64,000 nucleotides of DNA from Acidobacteriota bacterium (GTDB lineage: Bacteria; Acidobacteriota; Blastocatellia; Pyrinomonadales; Pyrinomonadaceae). A model generated the notes under the pieces. It had not been told where the DNA came from and made no database searches. It worked only from the letters and a program-made list of their open reading frames with translations. The number at the start of each line of letters is the position of its first letter. The first letter of the stretch is position 1. The stretch spans positions 1-64,000 of the forward strand of contig QHXQ01000022.1 of assembly GCA_003223935.1 (NCBI GenBank). Direction: 5' to 3'. The translations under genes were made by a program, and so were the position numbers. Shown here piece by piece: positions 10,784 to 34,033 of the stretch.

Positions 10784-12865
10784 TTACTTAAACCTGAAGT
10801 TCGCGCGGTGGATGCTACCGTCGTTCAACTGGACGACCAACTGACGACAAGTCCCGGCCCATGCCGCGTCAGTCTTCCAGACGTAGACGTACTGGTCTGT
10901 CGCAGGATCATAGCTCAGGCTACTGCTGCCTGCCGTCACAGTGTCCTGCAAAGTCGTCGCCGGATCAGACGAGTTGCACATGCTAGGCCCCGAAGCGGGA
11001 GAGTCGGGCGCGAATATATTCAGGCCCTTGTTTCCGCTCAGACTGAACTTGACGGGGATGGCACGCCCTGCGTTGACCACGTTCACCGTCGGCAGGTTCG
11101 CCACCGGCGGGAAGAAGCCCGCGAAGTCGTAGAGCACCGTAACGGTGAACGAGCAGGAACTGGTGTTGCCGTTGTGATCGTCTGCTGTGGCGTTGACGAT
11201 TGTCGTACCGATGGGGAAGTTCGCGCCAGACGTATGGTCGGTTGTGACCGTGACGTTCGACGAGCAACTGTCGCCAGCCGTCACCGTGAAACTCACGGGC
11301 ATCGAGGTGGCGTTCGAGTTCGGCGGTAGGTTGACCATGATATCGGCCGGGCAAGAGATGACCGGCGCAGTGCTATCAACTACCTGCACAGTGCGTGTAG
11401 CTGTGGCGGTGTTAGCGCCGTCGGTGGCCGTGTAGGTAATGGTGTACGTGCCGGGCGTGTTCGCGTCAACGCTGCCCGAGGTGTTCACGGCGACGCTGCC
11501 GGCGCAAGTGTCGTGCGCCGTTGCGCCCGGATCGGAGAAGCTCGTATGACATTCGACGGTCATCGGGTTGGGCCCATTTAGAGTGATCATTGGGGCCATC
11601 GTGTCTTGGATGTTGATGACTACGTCATCGGTGGCGGAGTCGCCGCCTGTGTCCATGACGGTCAGTGTGATGGTGTGCGAGCCGTTCGGCAGAGAGACGG
11701 TCAACATCGCGCCCGTGCCGAGCGTCGTCATGCCCTCCGTCCAAGTGTAAGATGAGATCGTGCCGCTGCCCGGAGTTGAGCCTGTGCCGTCGAGCGTCAC
11801 GGATGTCAGTCCGCCCGTGCACTCCAAGGTCTGATCCGGCCCCGCGTCGGCCACGGGAGACGCAGTAGCAGCGCCGAACTTTTGGACGCGGTCGTTGCCG
11901 GTGTCTGCGACGTAGGAATTGCCGGCCGTGTCCGCCGCCACGTCTTGCGGGCCGCTGAACTCACCATCGCCAGTGCCCGGGTCTGGGCCGCCGCAGGTGG
12001 AGATGAATGTGCTAGTGGCCGAAAACTTTTGGAGGCGGTTATTGCCTGTGTCGGCGACATAGATGTTACCCGCGCCGTCGGCCGCGACACCTTGTGGTCC
12101 GTTGAATTGGCCATCGCCCGTGCCATTGCTGCCCCACTTGGTGAGGAACGTGCCGGTTGAGTTGAACTTCTGTATCCGATTATTGTTCGTGTCAGCGACA
12201 TAGACGTTGTCGGCCGCATCAACCGCGACGCCTTGCGGCCCGTTGAACTGGCCGTCGCCCGTGCCGTTGCTGCCCCACTTGGTGAGGAACACACCAGCGG
12301 ACGTAAATTTTTGTATCCGATGGTTGCCGATGTCTGCCACATAGACGTTGCCCGCAGAGTCCACTGCCACGCCGCCAGCACCGAAGAATTGGCTGTTGCC
12401 GCTGCCCTGTGTGCCCCACGATAAAACGAAAGCGCCACTTGAGTTGAACTTCTGTACCATCCCGCTTGAGCGATCAGGGTCTGAGTCCGTCACATAAATA
12501 TTGCCCGCCGAATCCACCGCCACGCCGGAAGCAGCGATGACCGCGCCGGTGCTGCTGCCGCCGGTGCCGAACTTGAACTGGAAGACTCCGCTCGAATCAA
12601 ACTTTTGTACGCGGTCATTCTGATCTGCGACATAGACATTGCCGGCACTGTCGGTCGCTATGCCTCTAGGGGTAATGAACTGCCCGTTGGCTGAACCCGT
12701 ACTGCCCCACTTCAAGAGAAAATTGCAGGCCGCCGCGGCCGCGCTTGGCCAGACCAACGGAGCGGCCAGCAGGGCCAGTGCCAGCGCAGGCCAGAGATAT
12801 TTCAGCCAACGCAAACTAGACGACGATGTTGTTGCACGATGGGAACGCGGGTTATGTGATCTCAT
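10784..12865 (-). CDS. Secreted NHL beta-propeller protein with PKD, HYR-like and PxKF-type domains
   Basis: A 693-residue exported protein. The signal peptide is residues 1-46 (LALALLAAPLVWPSAAAAA). Six or seven NHL repeats follow to about residue 335, each with a GVAVDSAGNVYVAD-type strand and an RIQKF motif. A PKD-like domain (about 338-420) is next, then a DUF5011-like Ig domain opening MITLNGPNPMTVECHTSF, a HYR-like domain opening APVISCPADIMVNLPP, and a C-terminal PxKF-type domain (RAIPVKFSLSGNKG, ending NFRFK). This is a cell-surface or secreted binding protein of unknown target. AGGAG 7 nt upstream fixes ATG 12865. Two adjacent NHL repeats are nearly identical (KWGSNGTGDGQFNGPQGVA in both), suggesting recent internal duplication. 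Confidence 0.9.
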   Translation of the reverse strand: MRSHNPRSHRATTSSSSLRWLKYLWPALALALLAAPLVWPSAAAAACNFLLKWGSTGSANGQFITPRGIATDSAGNVYVADQNDRVQKFDSSGVFQFKFGTGGSSTGAVIAASGVAVDSAGNIYVTDSDPDRSSGMVQKFNSSGAFVLSWGTQGSGNSQFFGAGGVAVDSAGNVYVADIGNHRIQKFTSAGVFLTKWGSNGTGDGQFNGPQGVAVDAADNVYVADTNNNRIQKFNSTGTFLTKWGSNGTGDGQFNGPQGVAADGAGNIYVADTGNNRLQKFSATSTFISTCGGPDPGTGDGEFSGPQDVAADTAGNSYVADTGNDRVQKFGAATASPVADAGPDQTLECTGGLTSVTLDGTGSTPGSGTISSYTWTEGMTTLGTGAMLTVSLPNGSHTITLTVMDTGGDSATDDVVINIQDTMAPMITLNGPNPMTVECHTSFSDPGATAHDTCAGSVAVNTSGSVDANTPGTYTITYTATDGANTATATRTVQVVDSTAPVISCPADIMVNLPPNSNATSMPVSFTVTAGDSCSSNVTVTTDHTSGANFPIGTTIVNATADDHNGNTSSCSFTVTVLYDFAGFFPPVANLPTVNVVNAGRAIPVKFSLSGNKGLNIFAPDSPASGPSMCNSSDPATTLQDTVTAGSSSLSYDPATDQYVYVWKTDAAWAGTCRQLVVQLNDGSIHRANFRFK

Positions 12866-25689: not shown

Positions 25690-26922
25690 ATGGCTGAGTT
25701 TATTTGTCGTTTGGGCACGCCGGCGGGCGAGGTGGTGACGCGGACGGTCGAGGCGGCCGGCGTGCAAGAGGCGCGCGTGCGGCTTGAGAGCGAGGGCTTT
25801 CGCGTCTTCTCGGTTGCACCGCCACGAACGCGCGGCGCGGCGGCGCTCACGCGCGGCGGACGCGGCGGCACGCAGGCGCGCGTCAAGGCGGGCGACTTCC
25901 TGCTGTTCAATCAACAACTCGCCGCGCTTATCCGCGCCGGCATCCCGATCCTGCAATCCATTGCGATGCTGCGCCGCCGGGCGACGAGCGCGCGCCTGCG
26001 TTCGCTGCTTGGCGACGTGGAAGAGAAGATACGCGGCGGCATGGCTTTGTCGGCGGCGTTCGCGGCGCAAGGGCCGGTCTTTCCGCGCATCTACACCGCT
26101 TCGATCCTCGCGGGCGAACGCTCTGGCGCGCTCGACGACGTGCTCAATCGCTACAACGCTTACATGCGGCGCGGCGTCGAAGTCCGACGCAAGATTCGCG
26201 GCGCGCTCGCCTATCCGATCTTTCTGTTGTGCGCCTCAGGCGGCATGGTCACGTTCTTGACGCTCTACGTCGTGCCGCGCATGCAGCGCCTGTTTCAAGG
26301 CTTCAATCAAAATCTGCCGTTTATTACGACGGTCGTGGTCGGCATCTCCGGTTGGGTTGCGGCGAACATCTTCTGGTTCGGGCCTCTGCTGCTCGGTCTC
26401 ATCGCGGTCTTGGTCTTCTGGACGCGCACGCCTGCGGGCCAAGTCTTCGTGGATCGCGTGCTGCTGCACGTGCCGATTGCCGGGCAACTGATCCGCCAAC
26501 TCGCCATCGCGCAAGTCACACGCTCGCTCTCGACACTACTGGCGGGCGGCATCACGCTTGTCGAATCTTGGGAGATCGCGGCCGAGTCAATCACGAACCG
26601 CGAGTTACGCGCGCGTAGTTCAAGCATCTTGCCGCTCGTGCGCGAAGGGCGTTCGTTTACGGAGAGTCTGGAGACCGCCGGTTGGATTCCGCCGCTTGCG
26701 CTCGACATGATCGGCGTGGGCGAGCGTTCAGGCAGTTTGCGCGAGATGTTGGAGGAGGTGGCAACCTTCTATGATGCCGAATCCGAAGTGCGGCTTGAAC
26801 AGTTGACGACGGTGCTTGAACCTGCAATTCTGTTGGTGATGGGCGGGGTCGTGATCACGATCCTCTTAGCCATCTACCTGCCGATTGTGCAGTCCATCTC
26901 GAATGTCTCGACGATGCGCTAG
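25690..26922 (+). CDS. Type II secretion / type IV pilus inner-membrane platform protein (GspF/PilC)
   Basis: A 410-residue polytopic inner-membrane protein of the GspF/PilC family, the platform that the assembly ATPase acts on. It contains two T2SSF domains: the first at about 65-190 (FLLFNQQLAALIRAGIPILQ, then LDDVLNRYNAYMRRGVEVRR) and the second at about 268-395 (QLAIAQVTRSLSTLLAGGI, then ALDMIGVGERSGSLREMLEE). Three transmembrane helices follow the family layout, the last being LLVMGGVVITILLAIYLPIV. The N-terminus reads AEFICRLGTPAGEVV, a short beta domain. It is the first gene of a six-gene run F-E-D-G-G-M. ATG 25690 has no SD. Confidence 0.95.
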   Translation: MAEFICRLGTPAGEVVTRTVEAAGVQEARVRLESEGFRVFSVAPPRTRGAAALTRGGRGGTQARVKAGDFLLFNQQLAALIRAGIPILQSIAMLRRRATSARLRSLLGDVEEKIRGGMALSAAFAAQGPVFPRIYTASILAGERSGALDDVLNRYNAYMRRGVEVRRKIRGALAYPIFLLCASGGMVTFLTLYVVPRMQRLFQGFNQNLPFITTVVVGISGWVAANIFWFGPLLLGLIAVLVFWTRTPAGQVFVDRVLLHVPIAGQLIRQLAIAQVTRSLSTLLAGGITLVESWEIAAESITNRELRARSSSILPLVREGRSFTESLETAGWIPPLALDMIGVGERSGSLREMLEEVATFYDAESEVRLEQLTTVLEPAILLVMGGVVITILLAIYLPIVQSISNVSTMR

Positions 26923-27013: not shown

Positions 27014-28732
27014 ATGACGACCTCTCTTGAAAACACGACGCCGCGCACGCACGGCCACAACGCGCCTGCGCCGCTCCCAGAAATCGGCTTGCCCCCGGAG
27101 GTGCGCGCTGCCCAAGAACTCGCGCGCCGCTATCGTCTGCCCTACATAGACCTGTTGCCGCCCGACGGCCCTTCGCCGATTGACTACGCGATCTTGGCCG
27201 AGCTGCCCGTTGACCTGATGGTGCGCAATCAGTTCGTGCCCCTGCGCCGCGAAGGCCGCCGCCTGCACGTGGCGATGGCCGACCCGACCGACCTCGAACG
27301 CTTGGACGAATTAGCCAGCGCTCTGCACGCGCGCATCGTCCCGCACGTGGCCACGGCCGGCGCGATTGATGTGGTCTTGCGCAAAGGCGATGCGACACAG
27401 CGCGTCTTGCAAGAGGCTGCGTCGGGTTTTCGCATCTCGCTCGTCAAAGAGACGGAGCAGGGTGAAGAGGTCTTAGACCTTGATCGTCTGGCGACCGACT
27501 CGGACATGTCGCCGATCATCAAACTGGTTGACACGATCATCTATAACGCGATGGAGTCGCGCGCTTCAGATATACACATTGAGACGCGCGACACAGAGGT
27601 GCAGGTCAAGTACCGGATTGACGGCGCGCTCTACGCCAAAGTTGATCCGATTGACATCTCGTATCATCAGACCTTGATCTCGCGCATCAAGGTTATGTCT
27701 GAATTAGATATTGCCGAGCGGCGCATCCCGCAAGACGGTCGCTTCCGCGTCCGCTACAAGGGGCGCAACGTTGACTTCCGCGTCTCGGTCATGCCGACCG
27801 TGCACGGCGAGGATGCGGTCATTCGTATTCTCGACAAGGAGCAGATCAACGAGAAGTTTCGCAATCTGAACTTGGACGTAGTCGGCTTCGACGAAGATGA
27901 CCTGCGCCACTTCCGCCGCTACATCGCAGAGCCTTACGGCATGGTGCTGGTGACAGGCCCGACCGGCTCAGGTAAGACGACTACTCTGTACGCTGCCTTA
28001 AACGAGATCAGAAACGAAGAAGACAAGATCATCACCATCGAAGACCCGGTCGAGTATCAACTGCACGGCATCACGCAGATTCCCGTGAATGAGAAAAAAG
28101 GTCTCACGTTTGCGCGGGGCTTGCGTTCGATCCTGCGTCACGACCCCGATAAGATCATGGTCGGCGAAATCCGCGACGAAGAGACGGCGCAGATCGCGAT
28201 TCAGTCGGCGCTCACAGGCCACTTGGTCTTTACCACCGTCCACGCCAACAACGTGATTGACGTGATCGGGCGTTTCTTGAACATGGGCGTCGAGCCTTAT
28301 AATTTCGTCTCGTCTTTGAACTGCGTGCTGGCGCAGCGCCTCGTGCGCGTGCTCTGCGAAGTCTGCAAGCGGCCGTATCATCCGGCGGACGACGAACTGA
28401 TCGAAGCGGGCTTGAAACCGTCCGAGTATTGCGACGGCATCTTTTACATGAGCGTTGGCTGCGACGCTTGCAACCACACGGGCTATCGCGGGCGCACAGC
28501 CATCCACGAGTTGCTCGATCTCTCGGACGACATCCGCGAGATGATCATCGAGCGCCGGCCGGGTTCGGAAGTGCGGCGCGCCGCCGAGGCCGAAGGACTC
28601 GCGTCCTTGCGCACGTCTGCGCTCAAAAAGGTCTTAGCCGGCACCTCGACGCTGCACGAGATCAACCGCGTCACGTTCGTCGAAGAAGTTAAGCTGAACG
28701 GAAACGGGAACGCAGTAGGCAGTAAGCCGTAG
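27014..28732 (+). CDS. Secretion/pilus assembly ATPase (GspE/PilB)
   Basis: A 572-residue hexameric AAA-type ATPase that powers pseudopilus or pilus assembly from the cytoplasmic face. It has an N-terminal MshEN/GspE-N domain (about 35-150), the Walker A motif GPTGSGKTTT (about residue 315), Asp box ITIEDPVEYQL, Walker B DKIMVGEIRDEETA, His box TGHLVFTTVHANN, and the C-terminal zinc site with two CxxC pairs (CEVCKRPYHP and CDACNHTGYRG, about residues 448-485). The full motif set argues for an extension-type ATPase rather than PilT. It is 91 bp after the F gene. The last five codons and the stop lie within a degenerate 7-mer array (GTAGGCA words). Confidence 0.96.
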   Translation: MTTSLENTTPRTHGHNAPAPLPEIGLPPEVRAAQELARRYRLPYIDLLPPDGPSPIDYAILAELPVDLMVRNQFVPLRREGRRLHVAMADPTDLERLDELASALHARIVPHVATAGAIDVVLRKGDATQRVLQEAASGFRISLVKETEQGEEVLDLDRLATDSDMSPIIKLVDTIIYNAMESRASDIHIETRDTEVQVKYRIDGALYAKVDPIDISYHQTLISRIKVMSELDIAERRIPQDGRFRVRYKGRNVDFRVSVMPTVHGEDAVIRILDKEQINEKFRNLNLDVVGFDEDDLRHFRRYIAEPYGMVLVTGPTGSGKTTTLYAALNEIRNEEDKIITIEDPVEYQLHGITQIPVNEKKGLTFARGLRSILRHDPDKIMVGEIRDEETAQIAIQSALTGHLVFTTVHANNVIDVIGRFLNMGVEPYNFVSSLNCVLAQRLVRVLCEVCKRPYHPADDELIEAGLKPSEYCDGIFYMSVGCDACNHTGYRGRTAIHELLDLSDDIREMIIERRPGSEVRRAAEAEGLASLRTSALKKVLAGTSTLHEINRVTFVEEVKLNGNGNAVGSKP

Positions 28733-28750
28733 GCTGTAGGCGGTCGCAGA
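28713..28750. repeat. 7-mer array GTAGGCA overlapping the end of the ATPase gene
   Basis: Words GTAGGCA, GTAAGCC, GTAGGCT, GTAGGCG and GTCGCAG run in tandem. The TAG stop of the ATPase gene is inside the array (28730-28732), so its C-terminal VGSKP is encoded by repeat sequence. Only one arm is clear. Confidence 0.7.
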
Positions 28751-28912
28751 ACTGCCCAATGCCTGACTTCGACGGTTCGCTTTTAAGGAACGCTTCCCGC
28801 GCATGAACGTGTAAGCAGACGAGCCGCTGCGCTTGTTACCTGTGGCCCGCGCGCGGCAACAGCTTCTCCGGCGGATTGAACTACTGACCACCGTTTTAAG
28901 ATGAGGATTGCG

Positions 28913-31693
28913 ATGAATTACAAAGCCTCCACTGCTGCACGCGCCTGCGCTGCGCTGCTCGTCGTCGTCTGCCTGCTGTTTGCGCCGATGGCGGCGCTGG
29001 CGAAGAAGGGCGAGAAGAATTACAACCGGGGCATCCAGTACGAGAAGATGCACCAATGGATGCAGGCCGCGCAGGAGTTCGCGTTGGCGGTTGCGGCCAA
29101 TCCTTCAGATACAGAGTATCAACTCCACTATCGCCGCGCCGTCTTCAACGCCTCGCAGAACTTCATGGAGCAGGGCCGCACGCTCGCCGATCAAGGCGAC
29201 TACGTGGGCGCGTACAACGCCTTTCGCCAAGCTTACGGCTACGATCCGATCAACGATCTGGCGGCCTCCGAGATGGAGCGCATGCTCCGCTTGCAGCGCG
29301 AGAAAGAGGGGCGCATCAGCAATACTAACGGCGGCGGCAATACGAACGGCAACGGCGTAAGCGGCACAGGCGCAAGCGTGCAGAGCGCACCGGCGGCCGA
29401 CGGCGTCGCGCACGTGCCCGCGTCTTATCGGCCGAACACGCCGCAACAGCCGCCGACGTTGGAACGCAGTCAGCAGCAGCGCGTCATCAAGTTCAGCGGC
29501 GATCTGGAAGTCTTTATTAAGCAACTGGCCCGCGACCTCGATCTGAACGTCATCTTCGACCGCGACTTTCCTAAGCGCCCGATCAATATCGAACTCAACA
29601 ACGTGACGACCGCCCGCGCTCTCGATTTCGTCTTCACCGCGCAAGGTCTCTTCTTCCAAAAACTTGATCGGCGCACGATCCTCGTCGCCGATCAATCGAA
29701 GCGCCCGCAGTATCAGCAGTTGGTCTTGCGCACCTTCTATCTCTCGAACATGAATCCGAACGACGCACGCTCGCTGATTCAATCGGCGCTGCCGCCCAAC
29801 GCCGGCCGCCAAGCGCAAGTCGTGCCGAACGTGCAGACCAACAGCATCACCGTGCGCGACACGCCTGAGAACATCGGGCTGATCGCCAAGCTCTTGCAGA
29901 ACGTGGACAAAGATCGCGCCGAAGTGGTGATGGACGTGAGCATCTACGAGGTGTCGCGTAACAACCTATTGCAGATCGGCAACCAGTTGGGCGACGCGAC
30001 CTCGCTCACCAACGGCTTGGGCGGTCTGCTGACCAGCACCTTCCCGTTCGGCGCGGGGCAGAATCGCATCACCGGCGCAACGACCGGCAGCGGCAAGACC
30101 GGCGGCACAACCGGCACGGCCACGATTGTCCCGAACATCGTCGGCGGCGCGCTTCTGTTGCCGTCTTCAACCATCAGTCTGTTCCAATCGAAAGACAACA
30201 CGCGCCTGCTTGCGTCCACACAGGTGCACGCCTTCGATGGCGAACAATCAACCGCGAACATCGGGCAGAAAGTGCCGGTGCAGACCGCCGCCGTCTCGTC
30301 TTTTCTAGGCAATGGCACCAACACGACGACCGCCGGTTCGCCGGCCACCTCCGGCCTATTCAACGGCGGCTATCCGGTCATTCAGTATCAAGACACGGGT
30401 CTCAACATGAAGTTCACGCCGACAGTCTTCCCGAACCAAGAAGTGCAGGTGAAGATGGAGATCGAGTCGAACGACGTGGTGGGCGGCGCGTCGAACCTGA
30501 CGCCGGTCTTCAGCCAACGCCACATCAGCGGCACGGCGCGCATCCCGAATAATCGGACGATGATGATCGCCTCGATCTCGCAGGACAAACAGGCGGACGG
30601 CCGGCGCGGCGTGCCCGTGCTCGGTCTGATCCCGCTCTTGGGTCGCCTGTTCGCCACGCCGACCAAGAGCGACTCCGATTCAGACATCGTCATCACGGTC
30701 ACGCCGCGCGTCTTGCGTGCGCCGACCATCACGCCGGAAGACTTGGAGATGCGCGATAGCGGCACGCTCTCGTCGCCCGCGAGCCAGTCGCTCGAAGCCC
30801 TCGTCGTCGAAGCCGACCGCGAAGACCAACTCGCCAGCGCGCGTCAGTTGCCGACCAACGCCTCCGTGCAACTGCCGGCGCCACTGCCGAACCTCACCGA
30901 CCCAGAGCCGCCGACCTTCGTGCCCGCACCGGCTGCTTTGACGACAACCGCCAGCAACAACAACACGAGCGCGAACACAAACACGACGACCGGCAACACG
31001 AGCGCACAGAGCACGGCGCAGCCGGCCGACAATCGAACGCCGTCGAACTTGATGCCGCTTGCGCCGGCCGCTCTGACGAACGGCGCGAATAGAGATATAT
31101 CGCTCGTCGTGCCCGCGCTCAATACAGGCGCGGCGCAGCCCGTCCCCGCAGTGAATAACACCTCTGCGCAGGTCGTGCCGGCCCTGTTGACGAATCAACC
31201 TGCAACCGTACCGGCGGTCGAGAATCGCACCGCGTCGGCTGGGCCGGTTGCCTCAGCCGATCAAGCGGCATCGTCGGGCGCGGCGTTGTTGCTGGTGACG
31301 AATCAACCGGAGATGCGCGTCGGGCAAAAGCAGCGTTTGATGATTTTGGTCAGGACCGGCACGCCGCTCAGTCTTGCGGCGACGACGCTCCGTTTTGATC
31401 CGCGTCTGTTCGCCGTGCGCGCAGTGACGAAGGGTAATCTCTTCGATGGCGCGCAGAGTGGCGCGACGCTTACGCAGTCGGTTGATCCTACGGGATCGCT
31501 CCTCGCCGTCGTCGCGCCCGCCGCCGGCATGCAGATCAAAGGCATGGGCGTATTGCTCCTCGTCGAAGTGGAAGCGCTCGCGCCGGGCGAAAGCGACATC
31601 ACGTTCGAGCAGACGGGCGTCCACTTCATGGCCGCCGACGGTCGCAGCATCGCGCCGCAGTTGGCGCAAGCGCACTTTGTAGTGAAACAGTGA
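28913..31693 (+). CDS. Secretin (GspD/PilQ-like) with C-terminal cohesin-like domain
   Basis: A 926-residue outer-membrane secretin that forms the exit pore. A signal peptide (CAALLVVVCLLFAPMAALA) is followed by a TPR-like region (about 35-125), a Gly/Asn linker, an STN-type domain (about 190-260, IFDRDFPKRPINIEL), an N1-type domain (270-330, RTFYLSNMNPNDARSLIQSA) and the secretin channel (about 425-600, ending VPVLGLIPLLGRLFATP and IVITVTPRVLR). A long Asn/Thr/Ala/Pro linker (about 610-790) leads to a cohesin-like beta domain (about 795-926, MRVGQKQRLMILVRTGTPLS onward). GAGG 6 nt before ATG 28913 favours it over ATG 28901. The stop overlaps the next start by 4 nt. Confidence 0.93.
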   Translation: MNYKASTAARACAALLVVVCLLFAPMAALAKKGEKNYNRGIQYEKMHQWMQAAQEFALAVAANPSDTEYQLHYRRAVFNASQNFMEQGRTLADQGDYVGAYNAFRQAYGYDPINDLAASEMERMLRLQREKEGRISNTNGGGNTNGNGVSGTGASVQSAPAADGVAHVPASYRPNTPQQPPTLERSQQQRVIKFSGDLEVFIKQLARDLDLNVIFDRDFPKRPINIELNNVTTARALDFVFTAQGLFFQKLDRRTILVADQSKRPQYQQLVLRTFYLSNMNPNDARSLIQSALPPNAGRQAQVVPNVQTNSITVRDTPENIGLIAKLLQNVDKDRAEVVMDVSIYEVSRNNLLQIGNQLGDATSLTNGLGGLLTSTFPFGAGQNRITGATTGSGKTGGTTGTATIVPNIVGGALLLPSSTISLFQSKDNTRLLASTQVHAFDGEQSTANIGQKVPVQTAAVSSFLGNGTNTTTAGSPATSGLFNGGYPVIQYQDTGLNMKFTPTVFPNQEVQVKMEIESNDVVGGASNLTPVFSQRHISGTARIPNNRTMMIASISQDKQADGRRGVPVLGLIPLLGRLFATPTKSDSDSDIVITVTPRVLRAPTITPEDLEMRDSGTLSSPASQSLEALVVEADREDQLASARQLPTNASVQLPAPLPNLTDPEPPTFVPAPAALTTTASNNNTSANTNTTTGNTSAQSTAQPADNRTPSNLMPLAPAALTNGANRDISLVVPALNTGAAQPVPAVNNTSAQVVPALLTNQPATVPAVENRTASAGPVASADQAASSGAALLLVTNQPEMRVGQKQRLMILVRTGTPLSLAATTLRFDPRLFAVRAVTKGNLFDGAQSGATLTQSVDPTGSLLAVVAPAAGMQIKGMGVLLLVEVEALAPGESDITFEQTGVHFMAADGRSIAPQLAQAHFVVKQ

Positions 31694-32442
31694 AAGCAGA
31701 AAGCAGAAAGCAGAAGGCAGAAAGCAGAAGGCAGAAAGCAGAAGGCAAGCGAGAGCAAGCTACTGCCTACTGCCTATTGCCTACTGCCCACTCCTCTGCC
31801 GGTTGGACGCTCATTGAACTGGTCATCACGATGACCGTGTTGGCGATCCTTTCGGTCGGCGTGATCCCGCTCGTCAAGACGGCCGTAAAGCGGCAACGCG
31901 AATATGAGTTGCGCGCGGCACTCAGGCAGATGCGCGAGTCGATCAAAGAATTTCACCGCGACACGGTCGGGATGCAATGCACAGGCATCGGCAGCGTTAG
32001 CAGTGCCAACAGCGCACCCGCAAGTGGCCCACAGGCAGCCACGCCACCAAACGGGCAGGGCGGCGGCGTCAACATTGATCCGCGCAGCAAGGTCGTTATC
32101 GCCGATTGCACGATCTTCGGCGTGGACAACATCGAACGCTACCCGCCGAGTCTGGACGCGTTGGTGCAGGGCGTGAACGTTGTGCCGCGCGTGCCTCTGG
32201 GGGGCGCGCCGAATATCAATCAGAGTCCGACCGAGACGAGCGGCGGGTTGCTGGCGAACAAGAAGAAGATTTACCTGCGCGCCATTCCGAAAGACTCAAT
32301 GACCGGCAAAGACGATTGGTGTCTGCACTCGCCCTTCGACGACCCCGGTACATGCTCCGACAACCCAGACGCGGGCATCTTCGACATCACCTCCAAAGCA
32401 GACGGGACGGCACTCGACGGGACGAAGTACAGTGATTGGTAA
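31690..32442 (+). CDS. GspG-like pseudopilin with repeat-encoded leader peptide
   Basis: A 250-residue type IV pilin-like protein. The prepilin site is SSAG|WTLIELVITMTVLA, with Glu at +5 and a hydrophobic N-terminal helix, then KRQREYELRAALRQMRESIK and a C-terminal globular region with GspG-type features (KKIYLRAIPKDSMTGKDDW, DGTKYSDW). The leader is 38 residues if the GTG at 31690 is used, and residues 2-34 are encoded by a 7-mer hairpin. It therefore shows the heptapeptide period KAESRKQ / KAESRRQ / KAEGKRE, then ATAYCLLPTAHSSAG. An in-frame TTG in the right arm would leave a 9-residue leader, but with no SD and no positive charge. Residue +1 is Trp instead of Phe. Confidence 0.85.
   Translation: MKAESRKQKAESRRQKAEGKREQATAYCLLPTAHSSAGWTLIELVITMTVLAILSVGVIPLVKTAVKRQREYELRAALRQMRESIKEFHRDTVGMQCTGIGSVSSANSAPASGPQAATPPNGQGGGVNIDPRSKVVIADCTIFGVDNIERYPPSLDALVQGVNVVPRVPLGGAPNINQSPTETSGGLLANKKKIYLRAIPKDSMTGKDDWCLHSPFDDPGTCSDNPDAGIFDITSKADGTALDGTKYSDW
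31693..31793. repeat. 7-mer hairpin GCAGAAA/CTACTGC inside a coding sequence
   Basis: The left arm has about nine GCAGAAA/GCAGAAG words (31697-31747); the right arm has CTACTGC, CTACTGC, CTATTGC, CTACTGC (about 31761-31788). It is the same word family as the intergenic hairpin at 2929-3016. Here it lies wholly within the leader-coding part of a pseudopilin gene. Confidence 0.92.
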
Positions 32443-32443
32443 A

Positions 32444-32550
32444 ATGCAGAAGGCAGAAGGGCGTGAACAAAAAACGGCCCTCGTTAGCAATAGACCGCAA
32501 CGCTTGCGGCGGCTGCCTGCTGCTTTCCGCCTGCTGCCTTCTTCTGCGTC
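32444..32550. repeat. Degenerate 7-mer hairpin inside the second pseudopilin leader
   Basis: The left arm TGCAGAAGGCAGAAGGGCG (32445-32463) faces a right arm of CTGCCTGCTGC, CCTGCTGCC and TTCTTCTGC words (about 32514-32547), with a small GCGG inverted pair inside the loop. It is more degraded than the copy at 31693-31793. Confidence 0.8.
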
Positions 32551-32920
32551 CGGCTTCACGCTGCTTGAGTTGATGATCGTGATTTCGATCATCATCGTGC
32601 TCGCGGTCATAGTGTTGCCGCAGTATCAACGCACAGTGCAGCAGGCACGCGAGTCCGTGCTGCGCGACGACCTGTTCCAGATGCGCAAGATGCTCGACCA
32701 GTATGCCGCCGACAAGGGCAAGCTGCCCGAATCGCTCGATGAACTGGTCAACGCCGGTTACCTGCGCGAAGTGCCGGTTGATCCGATGACCGGGCAGCGC
32801 GACTGGGTGCCGCAGACCGGCCAAGACCCGAACTCTTCGGAAGGCGGCTCCGGCGTCATTGACGTGCACAGCGCCTCCTCCGACACGGCACTTGATGGTT
32901 CGACTTATAACGAATGGTGA
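32444..32920 (+). CDS. GspG-like pseudopilin, second copy, leader from repeat
   Basis: A 158-residue major-pseudopilin-type protein. The prepilin cleavage site is SSASG|FTLLELMIVISIII, followed by VIVLPQYQRTVQQARESVLR and the GspG domain with DQYAADKGKLPESLDELVNA, YLREVPVDPMTGQRDW and the C-terminal SSDTALDGSTYNEW. Asp/Glu residues near the C-terminus may bind calcium, as in GspG. ATG 32444 is 1 nt after the previous stop; GTG 32432 is an alternative. The leader (about 37 residues, MQKAEGREQK to LPSSASG) is again built from 7-mer words of the GCAGAAG/CTGCCTGCTGC type. It probably forms the pseudopilus shaft with the preceding protein. Confidence 0.9.
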   Translation: MQKAEGREQKTALVSNRPQRLRRLPAAFRLLPSSASGFTLLELMIVISIIIVLAVIVLPQYQRTVQQARESVLRDDLFQMRKMLDQYAADKGKLPESLDELVNAGYLREVPVDPMTGQRDWVPQTGQDPNSSEGGSGVIDVHSASSDTALDGSTYNEW

Positions 32921-32927
32921 CAAGGAC

Positions 32928-32993
32928 AGTGCTGTGTGACAAGTGATGAGATAAAGACAAGCAATTAACTCGTCACTTGTCACTCAGCACTGC
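32928..32993. repeat. Intergenic 7-mer hairpin, GTGACAA/TTGTCAC word
   Basis: The left arm AGTGCTGTGTGACAAGTGAT and the right arm CTCGTCACTTGTCACTCAGC are complementary with small interruptions. It ends CACTGC and TTTTCT-ATG, so the next start codon (33000) follows within 7 nt with no ribosome-binding site. The same word recurs at 61211-61291. Confidence 0.92.
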
Positions 32994-32999
32994 TTTTCT

Positions 33000-33953
33000 A
33001 TGGCGAATCCATTGGCAAGACTAATCAAGCCGCGCTGGCCGTCGGCTGCGGTCGGGTTGACGGGCGAGGGCGCGGCCGTCGTGTCGCTTGATCGGCGGCG
33101 CGATGCGTTGGTCGTGCGGCGCGCGGGCTATGTGCAGTTGCCTGATGGTTTGTTGCGGCCGAGTTTTGAAGAGGCGAACGTCGCCGACGTTAATGAGTTG
33201 ACGGACGTGCTTGGCGATCTGGTGCGCAGCACTGGTTTGATGAAGCGGCGGCGTTGGTCTGTGGCGCTACCGGAAGCGGCGACGCGCACCGCGATCATCA
33301 CGATGGAGTCGCAGCCCGGCTCACGCGCTGAACTTGAAGAGATGCTGCGCTGGAAAACCGAGCGCACGTTCGGTCATGCGCTCGATGAGTTGCGCGTCGC
33401 GCGCGAGAGTTTGCGTGCGGACGCGCAAGGGCGCGCGCGCTATCTCACCACGGCCGTGCGGCTGTCTGTGCTGGCTGAATATGAAGCGGCGTTCGTCGCG
33501 TTGGGGTGGCAAGCGGGTTTGATCCTGCCGCGTCACATGGGCGAGGCTTGGTGGTTGATGCGCGAACGCACGTCTGCGCCGTCGCTGCTAGTAAGCACGC
33601 ACGCCGAAGGCTTCACGGCCGTGCTGCTGCGCGGCGGTCAACCCTTGCTCGTGCGCAGCATTGTCTGCGACCCGGAAGACCGCGCCGACGAACTCTATCG
33701 CTTCCTGCTCTTCTACCGCGACCGCATGGCTGCACAAACGGACGCAGGACTTGCGCCCGAACAGATCGAACAATTGCTCGTCGCCGGGCACGGTCTCGAA
33801 CCGCAAACTGCGCACACGCTCGTCGCCGAAACGCTCAACGCCAATCCGCGCCTCGTCAGCGCTGCCGACGTACATCTCGAATTTCCCGCTCACAATTTCG
33901 ACTTCAACCTGATCGCCGCGCCCGCAGGTCTCGCCGCGCTCGCGTGGGCATGA
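33000..33953 (+). CDS. PilM-like actin-fold protein of the secretion/pilus apparatus
   Basis: A 317-residue protein resembling the actin-like ATPase PilM, which links the cytoplasmic ATPase to the inner-membrane alignment complex. It has an N-terminal actin-fold opening (SAAVGLTGEGAAVVSLDRRR), the middle segment WSVALPEAATRTAIITME followed by ELEEMLRWKTERTFGHALDE, and a late glycine-rich part (EQLLVAGHGLEP) near the nucleotide site. The similarity is by pattern and position, not strong motif identity. It ends the operon; PilN, PilO and PilP partners do not follow here. ATG 33000 comes just after a hairpin arm with no SD. Confidence 0.8.
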   Translation: MANPLARLIKPRWPSAAVGLTGEGAAVVSLDRRRDALVVRRAGYVQLPDGLLRPSFEEANVADVNELTDVLGDLVRSTGLMKRRRWSVALPEAATRTAIITMESQPGSRAELEEMLRWKTERTFGHALDELRVARESLRADAQGRARYLTTAVRLSVLAEYEAAFVALGWQAGLILPRHMGEAWWLMRERTSAPSLLVSTHAEGFTAVLLRGGQPLLVRSIVCDPEDRADELYRFLLFYRDRMAAQTDAGLAPEQIEQLLVAGHGLEPQTAHTLVAETLNANPRLVSAADVHLEFPAHNFDFNLIAAPAGLAALAWA

Positions 33954-33955
33954 AA

Positions 33956-34030
33956 GGCAGTGGACAGTGGTCGGTGGTCAGTGATCAGTGAGAACAGTCT
34001 TTCACTGTCCACTGTCCACTGTCCACTGCT
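33956..34030. repeat. Intergenic 7-mer hairpin, CAGTGGA/TCCACTG word
   Basis: The left arm GGCAGTGGACAGTGGTCGGT and onward, and the right arm CACTGTCCACTGTCCACTGT and onward, ending CTGC and TTTT. It starts 3 nt after the PilM stop. Unlike most members it is followed by about 50 bp, probably a promoter region, before the next ATG. Confidence 0.92.
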
Positions 34031-34033
34031 TTT

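Follow-up and report, generated by a model that had tools for sequence, protein, structure and literature searches.

The Rickettsia palindromic elements (RPE; Ogata et al. 2000) are sequence-related repeats of 105-146 bp that are inserted in protein genes (review PMC2229807), and in Yersinia an RU-2/YPAL element is proposed to contribute part of the YPO1552 signal peptide (PMC2229807). Repeats built from seven-nucleotide units have also been described. The TAACTGA heptanucleotide repeats of Beggiatoaceae occur mainly as direct repeats upstream of start codons and include stops (PMC4679880), and the P6b stems of Nostoc trnL introns consist of 7-nt repeats, with motif replacement within the stem (PMC4476775). 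The coding tandem repeats of Borgs, in turn, have unit lengths divisible by three (PMC9879509).

The locus presented here lies in a window of 64,000 nucleotides (the whole stretch of DNA analysed), which is part of a draft genome of 5.27 Mb; the named relatives closest to it are Pyrinomonadaceae, a family of soil Acidobacteria, and other Blastocatellia (Acidobacteriota). Its two adjacent pseudopilin genes, termed gene 1 and gene 2, carry hairpins made of 7-mers within their prepilin leaders. As with RPE, palindromes that are common in intergenic DNA turn up in frame within protein-coding genes too and are tolerated there, and such a repeat was indeed found both in intergenic positions and in frame inside a gene. 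In contrast with RPE, many unrelated 7-mer hairpins occur at one site, in a leader that is predicted to be removed, and in place of one shared sequence family the leaders hold 39 heptamer families. As in YPO1552, a noncoding repeat contributes to an export signal; however, YPO1552 is one proposed new protein whose signal peptide is hydrophobic, whereas the present case concerns a conserved pseudopilin in which a leader was already in place; it recurs across the family and comes with frame and start-codon tests. The Beggiatoaceae repeats resemble the leader arrays in being tandem 7-nt units at mostly noncoding positions, and the Nostoc stems in placing 7-nt repeats in a stem, although the latter lie inside an intron. 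Borg repeats likewise shape protein segments under a reading-frame constraint, but the leader unit is 7, and the constraint is on total insert length only. We know of no report of repeated hairpin capture by prepilin leaders, and a literature search gave none among the titles and abstracts listed; it likewise gave no paper on 7-mer hairpins in Blastocatellia.

The operon comprises GspF-, GspE- and GspD-like genes followed by the two pseudopilin genes. The T2SSF gene (25690-26922), 5' of the secretin and pseudopilin genes, and the T2SSE gene with MshEN (GspE; 27014-28732, stop codon 28730-28732) precede the GspD-like secretin gene (28901..31693, + strand; PF00263 with E 3.2e-30, PF03958, and TIGR02517 at 132 bits, below the cut-off). 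The secretin gene ends in a TGA (31691-31693) that shares bases with the GTG start of gene 1 (GTGA); gene 1 extends over 31690..32442 (+) and has its predicted cleavage after the Gly at 31801-31803. Gene 2 (32432..32920, +) has a conserved GTG at 32432 that overlaps the gene 1 stop (GTGATTGGTAA) and an alternative start at ATG 32444, and its predicted mature protein begins at Phe 32555. Both products present the hallmarks of type IV prepilins and pseudopilins, i.e., Gly(-1), a hydrophobic or aromatic residue at +1, Glu at +5 and a hydrophobic N-terminal helix, the predicted cleavage contexts being G^WTLIELVI in gene 1 and G^FTLLELMI in gene 2. Model TIGR02532 scored over its cut-off in both genes, and PF07963 was over it in gene 2 (25.5 bits) and 0.1 bit under it in gene 1 as translated (21.1 bits, cut-off 21.2). 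The gene 2 product is GspG-like and not a T2SS GspG equivalog, with TIGR01710 at 46.5 bits against a cut-off of 88.85. Given that the six other prepilins of the host genome (L001-L004, L006 and L007) have ordinary short leaders, the long leaders belong to this operon and not to pilins generally.

An earlier note, made from the sequence of the window alone, had described long leaders encoded by 7-mer hairpins in both pseudopilins, and these are present. Translated from GTG 31690, gene 1 begins with (V/M)KAESRKQKAESRRQKAEGKREQATAYCLLPTAHSSAG^WTLIELVI, a 38-residue leader, and gene 2 yields MQKAEGREQKTALVSNRPQRLRRLPAAFRLLPSSASG^FTLLELMI, a leader of 37 residues from ATG 32444 or 41 from GTG 32432. 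The left arm of gene 1 (31692..31747, +) has eight heptamer copies, GAAAGCA or GAAGGCA, which code for KAESRKQ, KAESRRQ and KAEGKRE with periods of 7 and 14, and its right arm (31760..31800, +) has CTACTGC-type heptamers coding for ATAYCLLPTAHSSA; Tandem Repeats Finder scored these arrays 105 (left) and 54 (right). The gene 2 hairpin has a partly decayed left arm at 32443..32463 (+; GCAGAAGGCAGAAGG) and a right arm at 32510..32550 (+; CTGCCTGCTGCTTTCCGCCTGCTGCCTTCTTCTGC). The 7-residue peptide period that had been attributed to both leaders is clear in gene 1 but is reduced to about 1.5 units in gene 2. Each leader RNA folds at about -43 kcal/mol, better than dinucleotide shuffles (z of -3.5 for gene 1 and -2.1 for gene 2). 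An intrinsic terminator was rejected, as the sequence reads no T run after either leader hairpin.

The assignment of the leader repeat to a class of intergenic hairpins also stands, 7-mer hairpins being frequent between genes in the host genome. A survey of 20 stretches plus the window, amounting to 371 kb without N runs and 7% of one genome, detected 32 heptamer hairpins, of which 28 are intergenic and 4 overlap the 3' end of a gene. These counts are lower bounds, since the ungapped stem detector (score of at least 15) does not pick up decayed hairpins, the window's two leader hairpins among them. None of the 32 hairpins found with this detector in the 371 kb lies within a CDS, the distance to a stop codon is between -5 and +11 nt in 24 of 30 cases, and in only 2 of 31 can the next gene's frame be read through the hairpin without a stop. 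Among those surveyed, the hairpins of the host genome lie immediately after stop codons, outside genes. Within the window, an untranslated hairpin with the same architecture as the leader hairpins, and with stop codons in its arms, is found 6 nt past the gene 2 stop (32927..32992, +), another untranslated heptamer hairpin (33953..34033, +) lies right at the stop codon of the gene that follows (33000-33953), and a decayed GTAGGCA-type array, read by eye, spans the GspE stop codon (28711..28742, +). These hairpins suggest that Acidobacteriota hold a large class of 7-mer hairpins anchored at stop codons, one that has apparently been little described.

Orthologues of gene 2 were found in 112 of 119 family genomes, most of the sampled genomes being draft metagenome bins, and their upstream flanks were compared along with those of further class members. 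The start-codon counts are based on the 125 loci in which the end of gene 1 was located. This end, [S/N]DW-stop, is conserved, and the potential gene 2 start GTG ACT GGT AAR (V T G K; V[TI]G) overlaps with its final codons. A GTG or ATG occupies the conserved overlap site in 88 of the 125 loci. Where this start is present, 85 of 88 loci are in frame and stop-free up to the cleavage site, the exceptions being L055, L127 and L141; where it is lost, the figure is 9 of 37, which is near chance (Fisher 7e-17). Loci with both a heptamer array and the start are open in frame in 41 of 42 cases (binomial at 1/3, 8e-19). Among these 41 open array loci, 17 lack any further ATG, GTG or TTG ahead of the cleavage site, and in 37 no start codon follows the last array.

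Independent evidence, on the ribosome-binding site, comes from a Gly codon of gene 1 that begins 13 nt before the gene 2 GTG, i.e., at Shine-Dalgarno distance. This codon reads GGA or GGG in 74 of the 81 loci that bear the start versus 14 of 33 start-lost loci (Fisher 9e-8), and in all 38 array loci with Gly at the position, while the same two codons account for 184 of 713 (26%) of the other gene 1 Gly codons. A Shine-Dalgarno-like motif is present in 76 of 88 start-bearing versus 16 of 37 start-lost loci. The retention of GGA/GGG at a synonymous position indicates that a ribosome-binding site and a start are maintained upstream of the repeat, and such conservation offers a way of mapping true start codons. 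Since related genomes are non-independent, all these p-values are too small, and the case for recurrence rests on the 7-12 tree changes and 39 heptamer types reported below. The computational comparison demonstrates that the leader extensions are translated with their frame preserved; the proposal that the repeat is read within the prepilin leader is thus upheld by frame, stop, start-codon and Shine-Dalgarno evidence from 125 orthologous loci.

For gene 1, fewer data give the same answer on translation as gene 2 does. In 20 of 20 cases, an array ahead of its cleavage site can be read in the pilin frame without a stop (the other two frames, 23 of 40), and a start lies at or before the array in 19 of 20 array loci. 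Were initiation to occur after the repeat, for example at TTG 31777 in gene 1 and at a TTG near 32504 in gene 2, the long leaders would be an annotation artefact. A hexamer-based gene model did set the gene 1 start at TTG 31777, and neither start in the host genome has a strong Shine-Dalgarno sequence: a clear one is absent before the gene 1 GTG, and the one before the gene 2 GTG is weak (GGGACG). However, the family-wide frame, stop and synonymous-codon evidence, and the array loci that offer no other start codon, make such late initiation very improbable. In particular, TTG 31777, which lies in the right arm of gene 1 and would yield a 9-residue leader without K/R, is disfavoured when judged from the relatives, even if the gene 1 start codon in the host genome is less certain than that of gene 2. 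Given the weak Shine-Dalgarno sequence, the gene 2 start may be ATG 32444, which has arisen 12 nt downstream of the GTG and is still 5' of the hairpin.

The earlier note had asked for a comparison with orthologues that lack the repeat. In many orthologues only one arm or no array at all is detected, and in about 27 the leader is short and hairpin-free. These hairpin-less relatives of gene 2 have complete leaders of 9-12 residues that begin at the same start codon, mostly contain K/R and end in Gly(-1). Short leaders with the same overlap include VTGKTRQRG, VTGKVKQAG, VTGKFGQKG, VIGKLRQAKG and VTGRRIGSSAG, and the Acidobacteriota outgroup Terracidiphilus has MRTGKPKHEAG, likewise with a stop/start overlap. 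Sister pairs differ by an insert that lies after the conserved start and ahead of Gly(-1), as with L070 (9 residues) and L072 (46 residues), and L133 and L136 form another sister pair that includes a short leader. Given the complete leaders of the hairpin-less orthologues, the repeat entered a leader that was already there, and the possibility that it created the leader is ruled out.

In 30 of 46 leader loci, the array starts 1-9 nt past the stop of gene 1. On the gene 2 tree, the array and short states require 12 changes, at least 7 of them by well supported branches, and 39 heptamer types occur among the leaders, which argues against a single ancestral insertion. Computationally, the insertion is shown to be recurrent and to have extended a pre-existing leader. 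The locus can be regarded as a replicated natural experiment across more than 100 genomes, in which noncoding repeats become coding and one can read where this happens, from which ancestral state and under which constraints (frame, stops, hydrophobicity). Two suggestions of the earlier note are not sustained: the repeat does not supply a missing prepilin charge, as the short leaders are already complete and mostly carry K/R without it, and this is not a rare single case, with at least 7-12 state changes and 39 heptamer types across the family. Its broader suggestion, that an intergenic repeat landed at the start of the genes and was exapted, holds as to the intergenic class and the translation; however, the repeat lengthened an existing leader, and its exaptation is improbable.

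Hairpins at the junction downstream of gene 2 served as a control set for selection on the insert. Stops occur in 79 of 87 control frames, and the leader inserts are open. Compared with these neighbouring intergenic hairpin frames, the inserts are more hydrophilic (GRAVY -0.86 vs -0.23) and more basic (net charge of 0.13 vs 0.07 per residue), which speaks for a true exaptation, in which the Lys/Arg-rich repeat peptide is now needed in the targeting signal. Yet the charge difference is not significant against the open control frames alone (p 0.28, n=8), the insert peptides are unrelated to one another, with net leader charges from -1 to +9, and short leaders suffice in close relatives, including both sister pairs, so that true exaptation appears improbable. 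The pattern fits tolerance together with purifying selection against stops, frameshifts and hydrophobic stretches.

Another reading is that the hairpin is retained for its RNA structure, for instance to affect mRNA stability, processing or coupling behind the stop of the upstream gene, with the peptide a by-product that has to stay open. This agrees with the occurrence of hairpins right after stops in the host genome, and after gene 2 in relatives, with the variation of the 7-mer sequence at one leader while the arm-loop-arm architecture recurs, and with the better-than-shuffled folding of both leader RNAs. In Nostoc trnL introns, two 7-nt motifs swap within one stem (PMC4476775). On the other hand, the many orthologues that are single-armed or without an array, and those with short hairpin-less leaders, indicate no strict need for the structure, and we regard this reading as possible but tentative. 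It is rather unlikely that the leader hairpins have a dual use, as a required junction RNA whose structure, rather than sequence, is conserved via repeated 7-mer replacement while its nucleotides have to encode an acceptable prepilin leader in all these lineages.

We consider it probable that hairpins anchored at stop codons had to become coding where genes overlap, and that they are tolerated in a leader that is predicted to be cleaved. Pyrinomonadaceae genomes are rich in hairpin elements in which tandem 7-mers are combined with their reverse complement. As the start of a pseudopilin overlaps the preceding stop (GTGA in the host for gene 1, and GTGACTGGTAA or similar for gene 2), a hairpin at that stop would land downstream of the next gene's start codon but ahead of its prepilin cleavage site, and would have to be read. 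Stop-codon anchoring is the presumed cause of the hairpin placement. Prepilin peptidase cleaves off the prepilin leader up to Gly(-1). Since all residues up to this Gly are removed, almost any peptide may be bearable, and hairpins have been gained and lost there repeatedly; the long leaders are probably still processed by the peptidase, and the insert is probably tolerated rather than useful. The insert is kept in frame, stop-free, hydrophilic and mildly basic by selection, and a stop-free 7-mer array, giving one heptapeptide in all three frames, is acceptable in any phase. This suggests that prepilin leaders tolerate nearly arbitrary N-terminal extensions of 30-65 residues. Among plasmid records, none but distant relatives of the operon were found, e.g., in Eleftheria terrae.

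The leader of gene 2 (32432-32920), whose start overlaps the stop codon of the adjacent pseudopilin gene 1 (31690-32442), has its residue 4 determined by which stop codon ends gene 1. Across the junctions in L038-L164, TAA yields K or N at this position, TAG yields R or S, and TGA yields E or D; a basic residue prevails, being present in 70 of the 85 junctions. One clade (L140, L142, L144, L145, L147 and L150) has lost the conserved GTG start of gene 2, and its gene 2 instead starts at an ATG formed by the gene 1 stop codon (TAATG or TGATG), which gives the clade a short overlap start again.

Considering the window together with the surveyed stretches of its own genome (L196-L215), the distance from stop codon to heptamer hairpin lies between -5 and +11 nt in 24 of 30 cases, and this close placement is independent of the hairpin sequence.

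In the Bryobacteraceae locus L193, the leader preceding the gene 2 orthologue is occupied by a repeat unlike the heptamer hairpins, which includes the palindrome-like GGGGGCGCCCAGCCCCC and encodes GG[V/D]RGRPAPVEP approximately four times. Given this different repeat, the gene 2 leader seems to take up repeats beyond the Pyrinomonadaceae as well. Within the window, Tandem Repeats Finder reports a 141-bp unit at 12082-12350 (approximately 1.9 copies, 81% match), which bears no relation to the heptamer hairpins.

A related operon is found in the Eleftheria terrae plasmid record NZ_CP106952.1 (L216), where a cohesin-domain protein is followed by three overlapping pseudopilin-like genes. The C-terminal part of the window's GspD-like secretin (28901-31693) may be similar.
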